This document shows, in pieces, positions 1 to 52,375 of a stretch of DNA of 64,000 nucleotides. Each line of letters opens with the position of its first letter. Position 1 is the stretch's first letter. A program made the position numbers and the translations under genes. The notes beneath the pieces were generated by a model, which worked only from the letters and a program-made list of their open reading frames with translations, had not been told where the DNA came from and searched no databases. Source of the stretch: Beroe forskalii (taxonomy: Eukaryota; Ctenophora; Nuda; Beroida; Beroidae); assembly GCA_011033025.1 (NCBI GenBank), contig WFMF01000238.1, forward strand, positions 62,001 through 126,000, given 5' to 3'.

Positions 1-2814
1 TGAAAATAATAAACGAGTTTGCCGAATAATTGATTCCATGGAAATAGAATATATCATCTGAGGATATTCATACAGTTATACTCAAAAACCCTCGAGACAG
101 GCTTTGGTCTGGTCGCTGCATCTTTGTACTGTGTTTTATAGATTACAATAAATCTCTGCAAATGCACTTTTTCGTGCACTTCTTTTTTACTTCATGCTAA
201 CGATCCGTCCTAAATTTGTTTACATCGATTACGGCATTTCATCAGGATTACTTTATTCATTATTCCTACTGTTATAGAAAGTTAATATATTGTGCGAAAC
301 CTCAGGAAGCCACTTCATTCCCATCAGCTGTAAGTTCAACAAAGTAACATCTTTCCTGTCAATATGGGTTTAGAAAAATATTTTCCCGTCAACTAAAGCA
401 TGAAGTCAATATATGTTATGGGTTTTGTAACAAGTTTTGGATCATGTTTTCCCGACGGAAAGACATTCCTTTCGTCGCCACTAAAATTCAATTTTCACGT
501 TTTAACATGAGCTGCCTATTTATTCACATTATGTTGTGGTAAAATAGTAATATAAATATTAAATCCCCAAAAGTCAAAACGGCATAAATGCACTCAACAT
601 TTTTTACTCAAAATGTGTAGCCTGAATTAAATTCAAATTATTTGAATTAAATGAGTGCCGGCATTACCTACGTCCTACAGATACGAAAAAACATTTAAAA
701 TAGAAAGGCACTGTAATTATAATTTGCCATACGCGTCGGTAATTTTTTTCAATAATAATTTAATAATGAAAGCTTAAAAGCGGCATCAAATTTAAGCCGA
801 ATGAGAATCCAGGTCGCCAAGGAAGAAGGAATTAGGAAACATATAAGTGACTGTTAAAATTTGCACCAAATATAATGCAAGGTTAGACCATTCATTACAT
901 GCTTTCTATTGAGCTGTGGGCAACGACAATGCAAGCTTGCATAATGGAAATACAATGGAGACAAGTCTGTCAAGGGCACGGCACTGATGTGAAATCGATA
1001 GTTGTGGATTTACAGCGATATATACATTGGTACACCACGGACTAAGGGACCAAGGGTCCGGTGCGGTGTGAAACAAAGCTCCATCTCAGTTGAAATTAAA
1101 AAGCCGTGGTTCATAATCATATGGAATATGTAAGTTTAACTGTCCGTTTGATAGTAAATTGACTTCGATCGGTAACGGACGCTCGATATGGTTATCAAGC
1201 AGTGATCGATTTACCAAATAATATCCTTCTAGACTATGATTAATGATGATAATGACGCCAGTCTCATCATTTGCTAACTAAAAACAGCTTTTAAAGAAGA
1301 TCTAGGAAAGGGAATGCTCGCATGATCAGACGACAGAAGTTGCTCTAATAATTCTCCTTTTACGATTGGAGAGGGGCCGATAAAGACGTGCGATTTACTG
1401 TTAATTGTTATCTTGCATATTAGATCTTGATTCAAATTAGCAATCACATATCAGGCGCTATCCGCTAGAATTATGCATCAGCATGTGTGCAGATCGCTCG
1501 ATTAATGGTTGGCTTAATAAAGACACACAATTTTGCTGTTCTTCACATTTACATTTTTGGAGGTTGACGTGCAAACTGTAAAATTGCGCGTCATTATAGT
1601 TATCGACCCCTCTGTCAATCGAGCAATCTGCACACCTACATACGTTACCCTACCTCCTCAGCTACGCCTGCAGAGGTGCCAGGGCGCGCTCCGTGTTATT
1701 GGAGAATCTTTATATTCATACACTTGGTACAACAGTCCTTATTATAAACCTTATTATTAATGTAAAATGTAGGCGGCGTGGCGTAATCATTTCCCCATTA
1801 TAAACCCAGGTAATCACGTCATAAATAAACACTGATTAGTCACCAGGGCCCTTACATAATTTGGATCTTATAGTCAAACGATATTAGTAATTAGCATTAG
1901 GAACTCGACTAGGAAGCGACTGGGACTATGAATAATAAACAACCCCAAATCTTTATGGTAGCCTGTAAAAGACGGTGTCTCCCAAGACGCGAACATATAT
2001 AGCAGTTTTACGACATCAACTCGCTGTTTAAAGTAGTGATAATGACGTCAATATGAGCTGCATAATAGAACGGCGCCCTATTTTACACAGGCTGACAGAT
2101 CCTGTGGAAATACATAAACAAGCGGTGAACCTCAAATTTCTTTCAATTGTAGTGATACTGCTAGTCTTCAAATATCAAATTTGTGCTTATAAGCTTTGTC
2201 GAGAATGACGTCATCATAATGATTTAACATGGTGAATTGATGACACAAAACTGTGCCATTTATGCGCGCAGTATCATCGGCCACACCAGTGATATAATCC
2301 TGGCTACAGGAACAATTCGGCAAACTAATGACTTACTGATGTTTCCAGACTTGCAGTGTGTATCTTGACATTAGCACTATATATTCACCATTCATAGCTA
2401 CTGGTGAGTTGGGCAAATGTCAGGAATAATATCACAGCTTTGAGTGAGGATAATCATACCAAAATTTCAGAGGCGCCATGCACGCATGTGGATATACTGT
2501 TAAATTATAGTATCACGTACGTACAAGTAGCAGCCGTGTGGAAATTACGGAAGAGACTTTCTCAGAAATCGTCATTCACGATATAGACGTATCGAAAGTC
2601 AGGAAATATCGCAGGTATTAGGAAAATTGGAACCGAACGGATATCAGTTCCGGTTTGGTTCGGGATCGGTTCGTTTTTGGGGCGATCCGGATCATTTCCA
2701 AAGCTCTGGTCCGGTTCATTAAAGCCCGATCCAGCCGGTTTCTGGGTATATATAGTCCTCAAGTAACCTAGTGCATCGAGTGTCAGGAGTAGTAAAATAA
2801 ATTATTGATGCAAA
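1..2814. other. intergenic, no gene recognised
   Basis: AT-rich sequence with only short, composition-driven open frames. Two TGACGTCA octamers lie at 2043-2050 and 2206-2213; the second is in a decayed copy of the 90 bp miniature element described elsewhere in this list. A patch at about 2625-2735 is rich in CCGGTT/GGTTCGG words and may be an old simple repeat. A possible 24-base micro-exon at about 307-330, between an AG and a GTAAGT, is too short to support. Confidence 0.5.
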
Positions 2815-3744
2815 GTAGGGGAGATAGGCGGCAAATGGGACAGTTTGTCAAATGGGACAGCTTCATATCTCACTTAATTTTGGTCACTATGTAACATGAG
2901 ACCTTTGAATATGTTCCAATTAGTGGAACATAGATGGGAATTGAATTGCAGGTTGAATGCAATAAGAATCACGGTTTAAGGCTACAAAGCTGAACGAAGT
3001 CATCAGAACTAGGAAGTTGAGATTTTCATTTCGACTGTTGTGTTCGCATTATTGTTTTTAGGTCGCTTTTTTCGGTTTTATAGCCGATATCAGACATCTT
3101 ATGATGTTATTCAAACGTCAAAAACGTTGCTTCTCTAATATTCAGAATATATTATGCGAATTATGCATGCCATGAAATGGTCAAATGGGACAGATCGAAA
3201 TTTGGAAAATGGGACACCCTTTCGGCAGAATATTTCCATCTCATTAAACGTATTATTGCTTTTTGACCAACTTGAATTAATAGAAATAGCGTATTTTTCA
3301 TCATGGAACAGCCGTACTGGTGTATTCGGCATTTCTCATCAACTTCGAAAATTTTCTCTCTTATTCCAGGCTAAAACTGATTATGGCATGTTTGCACGGT
3401 TTTTTCAAATCTGATCAAAAAGTCCATTTCTAATGCACAAAAATATCAAAATGACATCAGACACCCAATATCAGGCAGCAGACAACTATGGGGACTGGGT
3501 TTTTGCGTGATGGGACAGGGTGTCCCATTTGGTAATCATGGCACTTATAAAATGGGACACTGTCCGTCAAATGGGACAGCTCATTATCTCAGAAACCCTT
3601 CATATTAATGACCTTGGAATGTGCAACAGAACATATTTCCACAATTCGAGTATCCTGGAACATAAATTTCACACAAAGCGTAGATCCTTTCATTCAAAAT
3701 GTTCATCTCAAATTTTTGTCCCATTTGCCGCCTATCTCCCCTAC
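2815..3744. mobile_element. 930 bp terminal-inverted-repeat DNA element, non-autonomous
   Basis: Positions 2815-2842 and 3717-3744 are exact reverse complements over 28 bases, starting GTAGGGGAGATAGGCGGCAA. Inside, the word AATGGGACA recurs on both strands, mostly near the two ends and once mid-element, as expected for repeated transposase-binding sites. The longest internal frames (65 to 89 codons) resemble no transposase I know, so the copy is probably mobilised in trans. The outermost bases read GTA...TAC, so a TA target duplication is possible but cannot be told from the inverted repeat itself. The superfamily is not assigned. Confidence 0.8.
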
Positions 3745-4520: not shown

Positions 4521-7500
4521 TGACACCGTAGCCACCTTTCTGGATTGCCAACTCAAGCTGAAGCTATGGCTAGCATTTAGCAATCCGCTGTGACAAACTG
4601 AGTTGAATGAGGCTATACGGTCTCTAATGTACTGTCAGTGTCACATCGATCAAATTATATGGACTAGGCACTTTCCTAACGAAAAGTAGAGTTAAAACCC
4701 TGTCAAAATTCGTAAGGAGTAATTGAAAATTGTAATCCGTCACTATAAAATCTAACCAGTACAGCATAAGACAAAATGGAGATTATATTCTTTCATCAAA
4801 AACCACCTCCAGCTTCTTAATCTGTCAGTGTCACAAATGGATTGTGCCTTTGCCGAGTCTATTCACTCCTTTCACGACTCTGTCACGATTCTTTAGAGAC
4901 TCTACCGTACTGACATACCGCGAACTAACTACAAAAACCGTGCAAACTGTATTGTGGTGAGAGCATGATTCATTTGAAGAAAGGAAAAAATATTCATTTA
5001 CGGTTTAACGGTTATTCAATACATTAAGCCAAGTCTAAGATCCAACCACTGATATCGCGAGTCAAAGAAGGTGGGAAGGAAGGGCTGCAGGTGTCAAGCT
5101 GAGCTGAGAAACGGACTAAATCATCACCAGCAGAGTAGAATAAAGGTTTGAGTCAGATAACTGTATCTATATCACCATACTGCATACTGGTTACTGAATA
5201 CGTGTATATTCAGTATCTGGAACATAACAAAAGTATCTGGAACAGTATCTGGAACAACGGTATTTGGAACATTTATAAATAATTACAAATATGATGAAAT
5301 GGTCGAAACACAAAAGAGAACTTGTATCCATTGATATGTACCTGCTGCAAGAGGTTTAATTGCATGTGGTCATGTGAGTATGCAACAATATTATCGGTTA
5401 CAAATTGGAGCAAGGGGGCATGGAATTGGGATAAGACGCGCGCGCGATCGAAATATTAATATTAACACTGTGTGCGCAAAACGGGAAATTAATTGCAGAG
5501 TCTTTCCTGTTCAAAGCATTTCCAAGCATTTCCAATTTACTATTTCAAGCACAAAACTTTTACACTTTATTTTAATGGTGGAAGGTCAGTGAGGAGAAAT
5601 GTCGATTGTCGGGCTCCCCTGCGACATGGAAGGGAGGTTGTAGTTCGCAGGGGACTATGGATCCATCCCAATTCATAAGCTAAAATACCTAACGAAGCAC
5701 CGCGATCCGAAAACCCGAGCTATACCATAAAGTAATAAGAGCCAATTCATTAATATTCTCTTGCAGTTGGCATTGATTGTTAAACAGCAGGCAATGAAAA
5801 CTTGAAGAGGCTGGCGCGTACAACAATCAACATATTATGAACAATATAAATTAATCAATGAATGTGTGAAGACAACCGGAGAAAAGACATGGGTAAAATG
5901 TGGTTCAGGGAGTCATCAGTTTACCACTTTAAACCAGAGAAGGTCCCTCTCCAATATTGTCCAACCAATACCATTCATTACATATTCCCTGCGCGGCTCG
6001 AAGTACAATAATAATAGTACTGAATTTCATTATCGCGAAGCGCGAACAGAGCCATTGGCCGAAGTCACTTCAATAATGGTTTTAAACACCGAGTTCAAAA
6101 CAATGTGTCATGAATCCTGAACCTAAATGGAGCCCACAAAAATTAACGCGCTAAAATACGTAATAACGTGAAAATAGACTTTGACAAGTAGCACACAGCC
6201 GTCAGACAGGTTGATGTGTAATTTACATCCGGCCGGATCAGAACAAATTAGTGCTAAATCGTTGGTGGTGTGTCTTGCAGGAAGAATCCCACTGCTGTAA
6301 ATTTAAAAAGACGTGTTTTGTTCATCGGAAGGAATTATCATATTCTATTTTGTCCCATCTTTTATCAAATTCGGACACTTTACTGATTGTATCATATAAA
6401 GTTGGTTCGTTCCCGACTTCCCCTTATAGTGTAAATGGAAGATTCCCACATTTGCAACATGGGGTTATAGGATCTGACCGACCCTATAATATAGAAATAC
6501 CCCGATGACATCCAAATAAGGGCCTTTCCATGTAATAATCGCCTGAACATGTTGCCTGCCCCCTATCAGGTGTCATGAATAAGAAATGGAATAAATTTAT
6601 TTGATTGTCACTCAATTTAAATACGTGTAGGGAGGGGGGAAAGAAATAATTATCATATTCATTAAACTTTTACTATGGGGATGTACTGAATTTGAGGAGC
6701 TTCCCCTTGCAAATTGACATCCATCCTCCAGATGTTGCCTGCCTTTATCAGACTCTCCGAGTCCAGAATTTTAAATAAATTTATTTGATTGAAAATATGG
6801 GCCAGAAAAAGTCTGACAAAATGTCAATGACAATAAATTGTTTCTGCACATATGATTTTAAAATCAAATTGTTAAATTCATGGATGGTTTTGAGCAAAAT
6901 AAACAGAGCACTAAAAATAACATATCTTCAAAATAAACCAAAATTGACAATTCAATAACAAAAACATACTGAATGATGAATATCGTCTATATAATATTGA
7001 AAAGCATCCCGTTTCAATATATTGAATTTTAGAAGTTTTCATATTTTCAATACCACAGCAACACTAAGTTAATAAGGCGCGTCGATAAATGGTGTTGAAT
7101 CAACACCATATTGACTGTTGATTTAAATTCTGATCCATCATCGAATGATAGTTTATTATCAATATAACCTTTGTCGGCATAGATTTGCACTGATTGAGAA
7201 ATTTTTGCCAAGGAAATTGAGTATTAAGTAGACTCAATCAGCACCGGAATGTCGCGACATAGTAAATTTAACGCCATGTCAAGCAGCCGATAAATATGAT
7301 TTTCAATTTTCGTGATGAAAATGCAACGCGGCGCTATAAAATTTTGATTTTTCACTCTCAAGTATCCAATTCACACGACACCATTGAGTTAAATTTCATA
7401 GCCATTTAGCCCATGAGCAATTAATCAATTATGTAATTTAGCAGCAAGAAAAAGTCAGCAAAAGTGATCGAGTAAATTCACGGGTTATTATCAGCAGACC

Positions 7501-7789: not shown

Positions 7790-10591
7790 TCACTGAAGCT
7801 GCTCAAATCTCCAATCATCGTCCTTGACTTCGATCCTCCGTAATTTTCTAATCGTTTCATCCAACTTTATCCTGAAAGAATTATGATGAGATGAAGTTAT
7901 GTTACATCGGTTTGGGCACAATTTGATTTAGTCGATCGATTTGGGCAACCTGTCTAAAAAACTAAGTCAATACATAAAAACCCCAAAAAAGTTAAACAAA
8001 AAAAGGTTTTCTACCTGTTGGGTTCAGCGAACTTATCCAGCATGTATCCGCTTTTAAAGAACTGGAAGGTTGGCATGCAGATGACCCTTCTAGAGGTGGC
8101 TATTTCTTCACTGTCATCAACATCAACCTGGTGTGATGACGGAATTATCATGCGGATTATACTCCGCGCAGGAGAAATAGGCGGAAATTGATGTTGCCGA
8201 ATCCGCATTTATCATGTGATTGAAAGTGGAAATTGATGTTGCCGAATCGGTATGACGGTATTTATTTCCAGCACCTTGATCAAGAAATCAATCGGATTTT
8301 AGGATAGTTTGAAGGAATTTTGACATGGTGCGAGCAAAATATAGAACCGGCATATCAAGGGATGCCAAAGTTTGGAAAACATCATTATCAACTCGTTAAG
8401 TCAGCGAAGTCATCAACTCACCTCGTAAAATATGACATCCCCATGGATATGGCTGAGTCTGTGAACGTCTGGTTTTATCATCCTCCAGGGACCACACCAC
8501 TTAGCACTGAACGTCACACAGACCAGGGAGTCATGGTGGTGCAGGATAGCTCGTTTAAACTGGTCCAGGGAGTCAATGTACTTTATACGACCTAGTGGAG
8601 AATAGCTCGTTTAAACTGATCCAGGGAGTCAATGTACTTTATACGACCTAGTGGGGGATAGCTCTTTTGAACTGGTCCAGAGAGTCAATGTACTTTATAC
8701 GACCTAGTGAAGGATAGCTCTTTTAAACTGGTCCAGAGAGTCTATGTACTTTATACGACCTAGTGAAGGGGAATGAGAGAATCAAACTGGTCCAGAGAGT
8801 CAATGTGCTTTATAAGACCTTAGAGAGGGGTAACAGTAAACAGAGCTGTCACTCACAATGAGAAAAGGGGATACGATTGAAACATGAATGCTGATGTGTA
8901 AGGAAACATTTGTCATGGGAAATTGATGTTTCAGTCAAAAGGGTGATAATAAGTGGATAAGATAGGGGGGGGGGCTTAAGATTGGATTGGGTTGAGATAG
9001 AAGCGTTAAAGCGCAACATTTTTTGCGACATATGTAGAGGGGTGAATTGGAAACTTCAATTATGGGAAGAATAAATCCTGTGGGAAATTGATAAGAAGTG
9101 CAATTAATGGACTCACTGTCGTCAACTCCAGATATCCCGTCAAAGTTCTTATATCTCCGATGTAGGAGAGGGGATCTGTTGCTGAGGTTACGGACTGTTT
9201 TAACCTGAGACGAGGGGGTTATGTAGATCTACAAAGGAGCAAAGAGAAGTAGAAGAATTTGAACAATTATTATTTCAGAATTACAAATATTAGGAGATCA
9301 CACCTATAATGGTAAGGAAAAGTTGTACGGATTGTAGTGAAGAAAAGACGATTAGATGCTAGAGGTTTTAAGAAAACATTTGAATTTCCTTTTTGCTTCC
9401 ATTTCCAAAGAAACTAAATTTCCCACCTGGTTGAGAACATTGTTGTAGACGTTGTTCAGTGCGCCATTCCAAGATGGACTGAGAGTAGTGCCTGAAAAAG
9501 GCGAAATAGTGTCGTCATAATTTGGTTTCAAGGTAAATTGGTACCATAACAAAGTAATGCCAAGGTTAAGAATTGTCGTCATAAAGTGGTGTCAAGGTAA
9601 ATTGGTACCATAACAAAATGATGTCAAGGTTAAGAAGTTTCGTGATAAAGTGGTGTCAAGGTAAATTGGTGTCATTATAAAGTGATGCCAAGGCAAAGAA
9701 GTGTCGTCATAAAGTGGTGTCAAGGTATATTGGTACCATAACAAAGTGATGTCAAGGTTAAGAAGTGTCATGATAAAGTGGTGTCAAGGTGAATTGGTGC
9801 CACCATAAAGTGATGTCAAGGCAAAGCAGTGTCGTGATAAAGTGGTGTCAAGGTATATTGGTGCCATTATAAAGTGATGTCATGGCAAAGAAGTGTCATG
9901 ATAAAATGGTGTCAATGTAAACAGGTAACATTATAAAGTGGTGTCAAGGCCAAAAAGCATCGCTATAAAATGCTAAAATGATGTCAAGGTAAAGTTGAAA
10001 AACATAATAAAGTGGTGTCAAGGTGAAATAGTGGTGTCAATGAGAAGCGTAGTGTCGTAATTGAGTGATGTCAAGACGAAGAAGTGAAAATTGGTGTCAA
10101 CACAAAGTTGTAAATAGTGGTGTCAACTGTCAAGGCGAAGTTGTGAATAGTGGTGTCAAGGTGAAGCAGTGAAATGTGGTGTCAAGGTGAAGTATGGCAC
10201 TGGTTGCATACTTGCATTACCTGCCGCATTATTTCCTGGATGCCCATTCATCACTTCCCCAGGTAGCTTATGGTGCTTCTGTTGACCCTGGTGTTTCTGT
10301 TGTCTACTCTGAAGATGATGGGTGTCAGTGCTGAATGTTAATTGTCTGGCTTTGCACAACACGTATTGATATAACACAGGAGCTTCATTGACATCAATCT
10401 GTCATGAACTTTTAATTCATCAGCAGTACCTTTGATTTTCTTACTAGCACTTGTCAAGAAATACAGTGGTGAATTTCATATTTCAGCACTTTGATAGTCT
10501 CACCAACCTGTGACTTTGGAGGAAGAGAGATGGCTGGCTTCAACGAGGCGTAGTCAATATCAGCGCATGTTCTTTGACCAATTGTGAACAT
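7790..10591 (-). CDS. thioredoxin-domain protein with N-terminal extension and CGPW active site
   Basis: Seven exons on the minus strand: 10591-10508, 10398-10221, 9491-9427, 9204-9117, 8591-8422, 8127-8015, 7871-7790. All junctions are GT-AG and all phases agree, giving 780 bases, 259 residues and a TGA stop. The ATG is preceded in frame by TAA. Residues 1-138 are an unrecognised extension, His/Gln-rich around 55-75. Residues 140 to about 245 are a thioredoxin fold: FSAKWCGPWRMIKP (Cys 171), FYEVDVDDSEEIA, the cis-proline segment CMPTFQFFK, and a last helix IKLDETIRKL. Known thioredoxins use CGPC and a buried Asp in VVDF; here the second Cys is Trp and that Asp is Thr, so ordinary dithiol reductase activity is unlikely. 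A trapping, binding or monothiol role is inference. The domain assignment is firm; the first two exons are less certain than the last three. Confidence 0.88.
8542..8825 (-). repeat. five tandem copies of the start of thioredoxin exon 5
   Basis: A 56 bp unit (60 bp in the most upstream copy) repeats five times, ending at about 8597, 8653, 8709, 8765 and 8825. Read on the minus strand, each unit holds a splice acceptor (CTAG or TAAG) followed by codons for RIKYIDSLDQFKRAILH, the first strand and helix of the thioredoxin domain. Only the copy starting at 8591 continues into the CGPW active site; the other four run into a TAG that is part of the next acceptor. The most upstream copy reads LIKHIDSLDQFDSLIPLH. 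The upstream copies lie in intron 4. Confidence 0.88.
9507..10195 (+). repeat. GTGGTGTCAAGGT minisatellite filling thioredoxin intron 2
   Basis: Irregular tandem array with core AGTGGTGTCAAGGTxAA and spacers such as ATTGGTACCATAACAAA; more than 20 core matches with variable spacing. It occupies nearly all of the intron between the exons at 10221 and 9491. The core TGGTGTCA is shared with the arrays near 28.9, 39.1 and 52.0 kb. Confidence 0.85.
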
Positions 10592-12022: not shown

Positions 12023-12215
12023 TAGGAAAGTGACTGGTTACTACAATAACTGAAAGAGAGAAAGGGGTAAAGGGGGTTGGATCTACGAGAAAGTGACTGG
12101 TTACTACAATAACTGAAAGAGGTAGAGGGGTAAAGGGGGGTGGATCTACGAGAAAGTGACTGGTTACTACAATAACTGAAAGATAGAAAGGGGTAAAGGG
12201 GGATGGATCTACGAG
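12023..12215 (+). repeat. three tandem 58-60 bp repeats
   Basis: Three units of GAAAGTGACTGGTTACTACA followed by ATAACTGAAAGA, a purine-rich stretch with GGGGTAAAGGGGG and GGATCTACGA. An 85-codon frame on the minus strand here is a by-product of the repeat. Confidence 0.85.
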
Positions 12216-12240
12216 AGATTCAGTCATTCCCCCAGATGTT

Positions 12241-12741
12241 GGAGCGCCACCCCAAGTTTAGGGGCGCCACCCCGAGTTTAGGGGCGCCACCCCGAGTTTA
12301 GGGGCGCCACCCCAAGTTTAGGAGCGCCACCCCAAGTTTAGGGGCGCCACCCCAAGTTTAGGGGCGCCACCCCAAGTTTAGGAGCGCCACCCCAAGTTTA
12401 GGGGCGCCACCCCAAGTTTAGGGGCGCCACCCCAAGTTTAGGAGCGCCACCCCACAGTTACTCGGTTTAGGGCGCCACCCCAAAGGGCGCCACCCCCAAG
12501 TTTAGGCCACCCCAAGTTTAGGAGCGCCACGCCCCAAGTTTAGGGGCGCCACCCCAAGTTTAGGAGCGCCACCCCAAGTTTAGGGGCGCCACCCCAAGTT
12601 TAGGGGCGCCACCCCAAGTTTAGGGGCGCCACCCCAAGTTTAGGGGCGCCACCCCAAGTTTAGGGGCGCCACCCCAAGTTTAGGGGCGCCACCCCGAGTT
12701 TAGGGGCGCCACCCCAAGTTTAGGGGCGCCACCCCGAGGGA
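12241..12741 (+). repeat. 20 bp minisatellite GGGGCGCCACCCCAAGTTTA
   Basis: About two dozen 20 bp units with few variants (GGAG for GGGG, CGAG for CAAG), interrupted at about 12454-12535 by irregular units. Each unit contains the palindrome GGCGCC and a possible GGGG/CCCC hairpin. It is the most GC-rich non-coding block in the window and lies at least 1.6 kb from either gene. Confidence 0.95.
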
Positions 12742-14650: not shown

Positions 14651-17165
14651 ATTGTCGCTATAAAGCCATCTCAGACACAGGCTAATGCACACATATAAGT
14701 AAGTTATTTATCTTTACAGTAGGAGAGTAGATCTTTACAGCTGCAGTCGACGTAAAATCACTTTCCCTGCTACTGTGAGTACTCAGTAATACACACTCTT
14801 ATACCTACATAAATCCATATCACGTCCTAAAAGAAGCATTTAATTTCCATACTCTAGAGCTCTAATACCTACATAAACCCATCACGTCCTAAAAGAAGTA
14901 TTTAATTTCCATCACAACGCGTCCAGGGACTCACGTGAAGAATCCTGATCAAAAAGCAAGTAGTATAGGCGGATAAATATGAGGTCACTATCATAGCTGA
15001 AAAGGATGCTTTGACGAGGTAATCATAGCATATTTTTGAATTTATAATCATATGATTTGCGTGATTATAGCACATCAGAACGACTAAGGGATGACTATAA
15101 GAGATGACATTTGCATAAATTATACCCACAATTATACCTCCTCACGCTCGAATGCAGTATAGGGCTGCTACCTTGATTATAGTACGAGCGAAAAATATAG
15201 GACGATATTTCGTCAACAGTTCAACATCTTACTCCCTGATAATAACGTCATGATTTTGAAGTCAAATAGAGTGCGTGCAACTGCATGATTACCTTTAAAG
15301 CAGTAGCTATACCCTGCAGTCACTACAAAAGTGAAGGACACGCGCGCGCATTAGGTTCATATAATACAGCTTAAAGCAAGGGGATCATGATGAAGTATAG
15401 TCGCAGTATTATAATCTTCAATCACTGCATATGATTAGTTGGGTAAACGTCATTATTTCGTCATTTCCATCTCTTATAATGACATCACTGACATTTGCAA
15501 ATGCTTCGTGTACGGCTTGTAAAATACTTGCTGTAAGGGTATGAGGGAAACAAATGGAGTGGTAATCATTCGCTCATTTGCAGAAATACACAGCAAATGC
15601 AAGGCGATCATTAGTTTCCAGTTCAGATCGTAGGAGAGGAATAGGAGTTTGAGAGTGAAGTGATTATCAAGGTTTAGAATGAGGAGTTGATGACTTATAA
15701 CCACGAACGTTTCACGCAAGGGAGTTATATCAGATCATAGCATGGGTTGCAACTACTGCTGTAAGTAAGTAAAAAGTCTCCAAATAAGCAAATATATACA
15801 GGGCATAATTGAATAAACACATCTGTTGACGAAAGAAAATGACGTCAAAATCTTATATGGATTCAATGCATGGATCTGAAACTCATGATTCTCTTTTCTT
15901 CAGAACCAGCATGAGATTCAAGAGTCAATTTTAATTTTCTGACTTGGGTTCAAAACTGGAGCAACGAATATTTCGGTTAATGATCGTGCTAAAATCTTGA
16001 ATCATAGTACACAAACTCTAAGGATTCATAGCAGCACTCTAATAAACACAAATGAGCGAAGGTAACACTATAACTGGACTTAATTAATTAGTTAATGGGC
16101 ACAATAAAAGTTATAGTAATTGAACTGCATAAATTTGACTCGAGACTTCAATCTTATTTGACTATTGACAATAAAGAGACATAATTTCAATGAGGTATTC
16201 AGATATTTTCATGTGGTAATTGAAAAGAGCCAATCAACAATCTTTTTAATTTTGATTCGCCGGGCATTTAATAATTCTACCCAATCATTTGAGCAAGAAC
16301 TGTCAAACCAAATTTTACGGACACGTGCACTGTACAAATGCATACTATTTTACATGCTGACATACTCCTACTAAAGTATTTAATTAATCAATATTTTATG
16401 CTGGTAATAGCATAAAGTACTAAAGTATAAGCTCCCACAGCAAGCATAATCCTACGAAATGAATCATTGAGCAGGTTTTAAATCATGTCATTGTCATGAT
16501 TTTAAGTATTAATCAATGACGTCACACTGCCTATTTTATACGCGGTGCATATAATCCCACAAAAAATGAACCAATTAATCAACGCGCTGTAGATCACGTG
16601 ACATGAATGCAGGTTTTTGATTGGTTGGCTAATGTGCTCCTTACACACACATGTGAAGATAGTGGGGCAGTGAACGGGTCGATGAACCGAGAGAAAAACG
16701 CTTGCTTTTGATTGCTTTTTACGCGTTTGATTGCTTTTGACGCGTTTCTTTTGAATTTCTTTCAAAATTAATTTTTTGCCTTATTTTATACCGCGCTATT
16801 TGCTTATCTGTGCATTTTATGGGCCGATTATGGGAAAAATATGCTAAGAGTACCATCACAATAAGAGGCTTGAATTCTGATATCTAAGCGTCTGAGCCAC
16901 AGAATTCTTTCTCTGAATGACTTATTATTTTCACCATGAGATCTGTTCATGAATTCCTATAATATCATCAGTTAATAATAATTTTATTGGAGGTATTGAA
17001 AAGAAGTTTACAGAATGAACAAAAAATATAAAAATATCGAATTTACAATTTACAGCTTTAATTTTTGACAATAAAGACTACAAAGAACGTCACAAAATTA
17101 TCACTCAGTAGAAACTTTCATCGAATCTATCATCTGTTATAATAGACCACGTCAATGCACCTCGC

Positions 17166-17176
17166 ACATAAAAGGA
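17166..17176 (+). promoter_or_regulatory. TATA-like sequence upstream of the protease
   Basis: ACATAAAAGG lies about 95 bases before the protease ATG at 17264, a suitable distance for a core promoter with a short leader. This is inference from position and base composition only. Confidence 0.3.
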
Positions 17177-17263
17177 AAATTCTGGAACTTTTGGGACCAA
17201 ACTTCATTGCCCTGGCCATTTCATCGAGTCTCTCACAAGAAGAGTTACCAAATTAACTGCACC

Positions 17264-18583
17264 ATGCGGATGTCCCTTTTTGTTTTATTTCTGGTTGTTG
17301 GATCAACAACCTCAAACGTTATCCGAGACTTAACCACAGAAGCACTTGAAAAGGCCCTCGCCTCTCCAACCCATCTATCCAACCTCTACGGACAATTTGT
17401 CAGATACCACAACTTGGATAGATGTTCAAAGGAGCATTCCCATCGACATAAGATCTTTAAAAAGACTTTGGAGCAGATCCAGAGACTACAGAAAGATGAG
17501 AGTGTCACATGGAAAGTTGGACTGACTTCAATTTCAGATCTGGAATCTCACGAACGACATTATCTGAGCGTAAACTCAACATACCGGGAGAATTGGAAGA
17601 AATCACGAACTCTGAAAAGCATCGCGTATGATAAAAACGCTGAGATCCCAGCTGAGTTTGATTGGAGAGACCCTTACAAGGATGGGGGTAGGATAACGTT
17701 TGTTAACCCGGTGCAGAGCCAGAAGGAGGGGAGTTGTTGGGCAAGAGCAGCAGTGGTTCCACTAGAGGCGCTGATGAAGAAAATAGGAGGGATCCTCTTC
17801 CAACTATCCGTTCAGGTTTGGTTGAATATCAGTTAATTCTATCTGGCATTCTGGTACGTTAGGACAAACCTTCTTAGTCCCTTTTATTTTCAGTTCATCC
17901 GAGTTTATGTTATGTTTTTAGCACTGCAGACAAGTGAATTACGGATATTGGTATATCCCTCGTGAGAATTATACGCCCCTTCGTGGCTTGCGCAAGTGGC
18001 TCACACATCGCATGAAAATATCTCCGTTCAGGAAGTTTACGACACAACCTACGACGGACTGAACTTTTTCGAAGGTGGGATCTGCACGGACGCCTGGGAG
18101 AAAATCATGACAACAGGTCGTCTGGGACTGAGATCCGAGATACCGGACGAACCCGGGAAGAAACCAAATCCCTACGCCAAACTCACTTACCAAGGAACAA
18201 CAAACATAATGAAACACTTCAGGATTACGGGCTATGAATACGTAGAAGACGAATAAGCTATGATATCCGCGGTCTACCTCAACTCTCCTGTCGTGGTAAT
18301 AATGGAAATAGGACTCCTGGATTTCAACGTGTATCGAGGTGATCCCTTTGGGGCTAGTTTGAAGGACTGTGGATCTGAATCTCTCCACGCTATGGCCGCA
18401 GTGGGGTATACAAAGAAAGTGCTAATAATAAGAAATAGTTGGGGAGATAACTGGGGCGAGGATGGGTATTTGCTGTGGAGTAGAGGGGTTAAGGGACATA
18501 ACTGTGGGATGTACTCTATTGATGCAGCCTATCCGACTATGGAGTTCAATGATGGGACAGAGGAGAGGGAGTTGGAGATTTAA
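17264..18583 (+). CDS. papain-family (C1A) cysteine protease precursor with one in-frame TAA
   Basis: Two exons, 17264-17815 and 18032-18583, joined in phase 0 by a GT-AG intron; the joint restores LSVQ-EVYD, matching the usual LSEQ-LVDC. The start is the ATG before MRMSLFVLFLVVGS, a signal peptide. Residues about 35-105 are an I29 inhibitor propeptide: the ERFNIN motif is present with its Asn changed to Thr, followed by GLTSISDL. The mature enzyme begins near IPAEFDWRD. Oxyanion Gln (VQSQ), catalytic Cys 158 (GSCWA), His 303 (LHAMAAVGY) and Asn 319 (IIRNSWG) are all present, with the papain spacing of 16 between His and Asn. Two of the three family disulfides are lost as pairs. An in-frame TAA at 18254-18256 interrupts the mature domain where relatives often carry an acidic residue. 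It is a young pseudogene, a null allele, or a sequence error; the downstream frame is intact for 108 codons. It probably acts in lysosomes or is secreted. Confidence 0.85.
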
Positions 18584-51734: not shown

Positions 51735-52375
51735 CCATCAGTTAGATAGTCAGAGCAAAGTGGTTTACTGGTTAGTGGTTAAGAGTGTAAGAAGTGGTGT
51801 CAGAGTGTAGCGGTGTTAGAGTGAAGTGGTGTCAGAGTAAAGTGGTGTCAGCGTTTAGTGGTGTCAGCGCGTTGAGTGGTGTCAGCGCGTTGAGTGGTGT
51901 CAGCGTGTAGTGGTGTCAACGCGTTGAGTGGTGTCAGCGTGAAGTGGTGTCAGCGCGTAGTTGTGTCAGCGCGTTGAGTGGTGTCAGCGTGAAGTGGTGT
52001 CATCGTGAAGTGGTGTCATCGTGAAGTGGTGTCAGCGTGAAGTGGTGTCAGCGTGTAGTTGTGTCAGCGCGTTGAGTGGTGTCAGCGTGAAGTGGTGTCA
52101 GCGTGAAGTGGTGTCAGCGTGAAGTGGTGTCAGCGTGTAGTGATGTCAGCGCGTTGAGTGGTGTCAGCGTGTTGTGGTGTCAGCGCGTTGAGTGGTGTCA
52201 GCGTGAAGTGGTGTCAGAGTAAAGTGTTTTCAGGGCAAAGTGGTGTCAGTGTAAAAGTGGTGTCAGAGTAAAGAGGTTTCTAGATGGAGTGCTGTCAGAG
52301 TTAAGTGGTGTCAGACTCAAGGTGAGATAGAGTCAGAGAAAAGTGGTGTCAAAGGAGAGTGATGTCGAGAATTGA
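51735..52375 (+). repeat. minisatellite AGTGGTGTCAGCGTGA, about 640 bp
   Basis: More than 30 GTGGTGTCA cores separated by GCGTGA, GCGCGTTG or GCGTGT, with a homogeneous centre and decayed ends. If the candidate terminal exon at 54481 or 58556 is real, the array is intronic, as the 9.5-10.2 kb array is in the thioredoxin-domain gene. Confidence 0.95.

Follow-up and report, generated by a model that had tools for sequence, protein, structure and literature searches.

A probable mirage minisatellite at an exon start of a thioredoxin-like gene in the ctenophore Beroe forskalii

Minisatellites that span an intron-exon boundary, called mirages, are known from amphioxus, where they have been described in the globin genes BflGb6 and BflGb9 and in Adh3 and are also named for troponin C (PMC3087553, PMC3902484). 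Similar repeats are found in amphioxus PGBD5, and the mirages reportedly leave regular splicing undisturbed (PMC3087553, PMC3902484); those of Adh and troponin C are stated to generate no aberrant mRNAs (PMC3902484). The traits of amphioxus-type mirages include haplotype length differences and somatic instability. A further system in which splice signals are multiplied is the intron gain model of Rogers, in which a segment containing AGGT is tandemly duplicated (cited in PMC3087553).

The array described here lies in a stretch of 64,000 nucleotides of the Beroe forskalii genome (contig WFMF01000238.1), hereafter the window, and is probably a mirage, that is, a minisatellite that arose from tandem duplication of an intron-exon boundary and whose copies have no protein function. 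Its unit consists of an acceptor AG and the first 53 nt of an exon, many units carry the splice signal, and the array adjoins the true intron-exon boundary of a gene whose frame is open from an exon at 9228-9117 to the stop codon. In the features given for them, amphioxus mirages and the Beroe arrays are alike, both being minisatellite-like tandem duplications across an intron-exon boundary in which many units retain splice signals (PMC3087553, PMC3902484). Unit spacing in the Beroe arrays is mostly 47-66 nt, compared with 150-160 bp reported for BflGb6 and 10-72 bp for Adh3 of amphioxus, and copies number up to 48, compared with 6 and 3 in the two BflGb6 haplotypes described. A contrast between shared and private variants, found in the Beroe arrays, has no counterpart in the amphioxus mirage account as far as the cited sections go (PMC3087553, PMC3902484). 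The Rogers model, as cited, also resembles the Beroe array in that tandem duplication copies splice signals; unlike in that model, the intron in the window is older than the array and the array lies inside it.

The Beroe arrays extend mirages to another phylum, with more copies than in the amphioxus globin example. No report of exon-start arrays in ctenophores was present among the literature matches listed, which is weak evidence of absence. What was a lancelet curiosity is now seen in a phylum near the animal root, and several times in one genome.

The thioredoxin-like gene and its array

The gene that carries the array is on the minus strand and is thioredoxin-like (PF00085, E 1e-17, 64.5 bits against a cut-off of 23.5), and thioredoxins are the best among the 60 solved relatives listed for its product. 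A CxxC redox motif is typical of redox-active thioredoxin (PF00085) members. It is missing from the window gene, where CGPW replaces CGPC and the second redox cysteine is Trp, and likewise from a paralog on contig C168 (locus L041, from about 5168), which also has CGPW and lacks the second redox cysteine. The product of the window gene is predicted to have a thioredoxin-like fold, and no claim is made of a working redox thioredoxin. The gene model begins with the upstream exon of Table 1 and ends at the stop, thus covering four exons, with the N-terminal part of the gene outside it. These four exons form a single open frame with GT donors and AG acceptors. The upstream exon, whose donor GTGAGT starts at 9116, had no match in the paralog locus and is less certain than the others. 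Rfam gave no match in the window at the gathering threshold. Outside the window, the mitochondrial contig (C1134) has 17.5% GC and a COX1 that follows code 4, and ARAGORN, set to the bacterial code, gave no tRNA in the first 10,000 bases of that contig.

Table 1 Features of the window array, its gene and three further arrays (window positions unless a contig or locus is given)
Feature	Position	Strand	Remarks
Upstream exon (IYITPSSQVKTVRNLSNRSPLLHRRYKNFDGISGVDD)	9117..9228	-	putative; 112 nt, open; acceptor TTCTCTTTGCTCCTTTGTAG, donor GTGAGTCC
Array-bearing intron	8592..9116	-	525 nt
Array as detected by TRF	8539-8820		period 56, 5.0 copies, score 390
Unit A, SLIKHIDSLDQFDSLIPLH then stop	8760..8818	-	59 nt, after AG 8819; 3' half diverged; ends in AG 8760
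Unit B, SRIKYIDSLDQFKRAILH then stop	8704..8759	-	56 nt, after AG 8760; exon-start copy
Unit C, SRIKYIDSLDQFKRAIPH then stop	8648..8703	-	56 nt, after AG 8704; sole non-synonymous variant of B-E (CCC)
Unit D, SRIKYIDSLDQFKRAILH then stop	8592..8647	-	56 nt, after AG 8648; end is the real exon's acceptor
Unit E, SRIKYIDSLDQFKRAILHHHDSL...	from 8591	-	after AG 8592; real exon start
Functional exon, thioredoxin fold with CGPW	8422..8591	-	start is unit E; donor GTGAGTTG
Next exon (VDVDDSEEIATSRRVICMPTFQFFKSGYMLDKFAEPNR)	8015..8127	-	joined in open frame
Last exon (IKLDETIRKLRRIEVKDDDWRFEQLQ then stop)	7790..7871	-	joined in open frame; contains stop codon
C169 array	C169:74,830-77,496 (L024 1646-3183, L077, L033 1-975)		48 copies of 56 nt, first truncated; consensus unit also contains donor-like GTAAGG
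C580:509k array	L036 1620-1801		three exon-start copies, spacing 55 and 66 nt
C580:494k array	L040 about 1650-3110		27 copies, mostly 47 nt apart; CAG + ESAVVHPLGSD exon start

As the original prediction had it, five tandem copies of a thioredoxin exon start, each behind its own acceptor AG, stand in a row on the minus strand, and the last of them is the true exon start (Table 1). The 56-nt repeats each consist of 53 nt copied from the exon start, followed by TAG. In unit A, two changes within 35 nt are non-synonymous. The DNA of the array has one match in the 216-Mb genome. That the array was produced by the assembly itself, a draft in 1134 contigs, is hardly conceivable, as it is only about 282 bp long, its units differ in their variants and such arrays occur at four loci. 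A birth in two steps by slippage, in which the intron ends preceding units A and B would be homologous, was considered and rejected, with 566 of 2000 shuffles aligning as well.

The paralog shares 71, 70 and 64% identity with the window gene in three matched stretches, and its exon begins after an AG at the same place and in the same intron phase; no array was found at the corresponding exon start of the paralog locus. Between the two genes dN is 0.20 and NG86 gave no dS, which was taken as saturation, and therefore both appear constrained. Just 5' of the second matched exon of the paralog (L041, about 5430-5530), the 3' end of the intron is duplicated.

Since the paralog shares the intron phase and has no array, the window array is derived, and the position and phase of its intron predate it. 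This comparison bears on the possibility that an intron gain is under way, in which duplication of an AG/GT segment would yield GT...AG units that are spliced as a mini-intron or recursively. Units do start with GT and end with AG in three of the four arrays, and the GTAAGG in the C169 unit resembles a donor. However, the intron of the window is not a new one, its place and phase being those of the paralog, GTCGTA looks like a poor donor by inspection (unscored), and the C580:494k unit begins with GA. Intron gain is therefore very unlikely.

Arrays at other loci

Tandem repeats were sought near family matches in 69 loci, several of which overlap one another or the window, and three more arrays of the same build were found, in PDI-type genes (Table 1). 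The exon at the C169 array is one that we take to be PDIA6-like. Exon-start arrays recur in the Beroe forskalii genome, a statement that refers to the 69 loci scanned and claims no genome-wide frequency. The array units of the four genes are unrelated in sequence, and copy numbers range from 3 to 48. The acceptor AG is retained in all five units of the window and CAG in 47 of the 48 copies of C169, where the exception is the truncated edge copy. The C580:494k array keeps the AG in 25 of its 27 copies, in two of these shifted by one base, and has lost it in the other two. An unusually flanked copy recurs in the same array after 255 bp, which looks like the duplication of a larger array segment.

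Used as queries, and apart from their overlap with themselves, exon-start windows matched a copy further upstream for 5 of 27 thioredoxin-family exons (L024, L033, L036, L040 and L004), some of these loci being near-copies or exons of one gene, and for 1 of 10 TCP1 exons, about three of which have short flanks at their starts. At least 30 exonic nt were copied at 3 of the 27 thioredoxin-family starts, while L033 and L004 show shorter, mainly intronic duplications at an acceptor. The TCP1 case is a 24-nt intronic match, and no copied exon start was seen among the 10 TCP1 exons, some with short flanks. Copies at exon-end windows were found in 2 of 27 thioredoxin-family exons and in 1 of 8 TCP1 exons (two TCP1 ends with too little flank were left out), the latter being a match of 29 bp with 12 exonic nt. 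An acceptor-side bias of the duplications is not claimed, the start and end counts being given without a significance test. Kinase loci were mostly single-exon full-length matches; about four repeats lie near the ends of kinase loci (L057, L066, L070, L073 and others).

Synonymous bias and the descent of the copies

The units had been predicted to diverge almost only at synonymous sites, and the counts bear this out. Units B-E differ at 8 variable sites in 53 nt, namely six third positions, one synonymous first position and one non-synonymous second position, and 8 of the 9 variants among them are synonymous. With a neutral synonymous fraction of 0.23-0.29, this corresponds to P = 5e-5 (kappa 1) to 3.6e-4 (kappa 4) in this frame. 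Taken by itself, the clustering at third positions (6 of 8 sites) is a weaker signal, with P = 0.02 in one phase and 0.06 when any phase is allowed. In 175,718 bases comprising the window and a set of further loci, eight arrays could be put to the same test with the best of all frames, a small control set that includes the window array itself. The window array gave 1.6e-4 and parts of the C169 array gave 0.025 (L024) and 0.75 (L033), with values of 0.38 to 0.76 for the remaining five rows, which represent four distinct places.

A non-coding minisatellite of the ordinary kind, with variants that are synonymous by accident, would fit a genome in which tandem repeats abound (the window gives 89 TRF rows at a minimum score of 40) and the small number of variants. 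Chance of this kind is nevertheless highly improbable in view of the P values of 5e-5 to 4e-4, of a last unit that is a real exon start and of three more arrays of the same build. Descent of the units from a coding copy answers the argument in the original prediction that a peptide should not persist in a non-coding minisatellite.

Part of the variation in the window array is ordered in space. The sites concerned are 22, 38 and 49, where the changes run along the array in unit order with the minimum number of steps, as they do in 4 of 120 possible orders; all four of these changes are synonymous. Of the changes confined to a single one of units A-D, 4 of 7 are synonymous. In this array of only 4-5 copies, the count for B-D alone is 4 of 5 (P 0.011-0.028), which is above the prediction of neutral decay.

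The two deep arrays allow variants that have spread to be set against those that have not. Among variants present in at least two copies, 7 of 8 are synonymous (5 of 6 in C580:494k, 2 of 2 in C169), while single-copy variants are synonymous in 3 of 11 cases (2 of 7 and 1 of 4, respectively), where the neutral fraction is 0.21-0.27. The difference between shared and private variants is significant in Fisher's test (P = 0.015, or 0.036 when adjacent changes in one copy are taken as one event), on the basis of 19 variants from two arrays, with just two shared variants coming from C169. These counts cover 21 of the 27 copies of C580:494k, six with indels having been dropped, and 47 of the 48 copies of C169, the truncated edge copy having been left out; when it is included, 3 of 13 private variants are synonymous (P 0.0067). 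Mean heterozygosity in the C580:494k array is 0.025, 0.016 and 0.147 at codon positions 1, 2 and 3, and 0.247 in the intron part.

As shared variants are synonymous and private ones look neutral, the data suggest that the copies originate from the exon under selection and decay afterwards. The duplicated segment would have comprised the last bases of the intron with the AG and the first 53 nt of the exon, with only the last copy serving as exon. After the duplication, unequal exchange or conversion may repeatedly have fed copies of the functional exon into the intron. The changes that spread would then be synonymous because the copies repeatedly derive from a functional exon under selection on the protein, and those arising after a copy became intronic would go unfiltered. 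In plain reading, variants that spread have passed via the functional exon, and later ones in dead copies have not been filtered.

Conversion with the functional exon was one of two explanations offered in the original prediction and is the better supported of them, by the contrast of shared and private variants and by the ordered changes of the window array, but the deep arrays do not show the corresponding gradient. In these, the copies showed no significant trend in their distance to the functional copy, nor were neighbours alike, and therefore exchange within the arrays must also occur. An order gradient as a general rule was discarded, being present in the window and absent from both deep arrays. 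The contrast between shared and private variants also suggests that dead copies can mimic selection on a protein, which would be a trap for methods that assess coding potential, and that synonymous changes an exon underwent in the past can be preserved in its array.

Splice-site choice and neighbouring repeats

Going by the reports on amphioxus, normal splicing in the window gene would pair the donor at 9116 with the AG at 8592, and use of an upstream AG would yield truncated transcripts, probably subject to nonsense-mediated decay. Use of an upstream acceptor in the window would indeed truncate the protein, as foreseen, since an in-frame stop follows after 18-19 aa. Of the 79 upstream copies in the four arrays (one truncated), 78 have no in-frame path into the functional exon. 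The exception is in C580:509k, where the middle acceptor would add 22 residues in frame (66 nt). As 78 of the 79 copies cannot reach the functional exon in frame, the sequences do not appear to favour translated isoforms, and the second explanation of the original prediction, truncated isoforms, found no positive support.

Why the last acceptor would win is not obvious, because the acceptors at 8819 and 8760 have longer pyrimidine tracts than the one at 8592 (pyrimidine fractions over 20 nt of 0.80, 0.90 and 0.60, respectively). Some mis-splicing is quite possible for the same reason, the functional acceptor having a shorter tract than those before units A and B. Perhaps the copies are alternative acceptors for short truncated isoforms, or a regulated switch of unproductive (poison) splicing that sets the protein level. 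In keeping with such a role, all five AGs are retained, the pyrimidine tracts preceding A and B are better than the one at E, and every upstream unit ends in an in-frame stop, which would make its use unproductive. However, the paralog does without an array, the units of the four genes are unrelated and vary from 3 to 48 copies, 3 of 11 private variants in the deep arrays are synonymous, a neutral-looking proportion, and the AG is lost in 2 of the 27 copies of C580:494k. A regulatory or isoform function is thus unlikely, and copies without protein function remain the preferred reading.

The arrays offer natural tests of how a 3' splice site is chosen, as one of them has 47 near-identical acceptors of which the last alone gives protein. 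It is conceivable, but doubtful, that exon-start arrays are frequent across the Beroe genome, that the spliceosome dependably selects the final one among as many as dozens of near-identical 3' splice sites, and that copy number possibly tunes the fraction of productive mRNA.

Other repeats are present in the window. At 12026-12216, three 63-bp copies each contain, on the minus strand, a pyrimidine tract with TTTCAG at its end and may represent a duplicated acceptor; no exon was recognised in these repeats. Long minisatellites occupy 12244-12735, 51791-52315 and 9508-9957, and repeats of the TGACACCA / TGGTGTCA type are found in the latter two as well as at L041 4291-4349. On the plus strand, at 17075-18583, the window also contains a papain-family cysteine protease with an I29 propeptide domain, matched in two separate frames.
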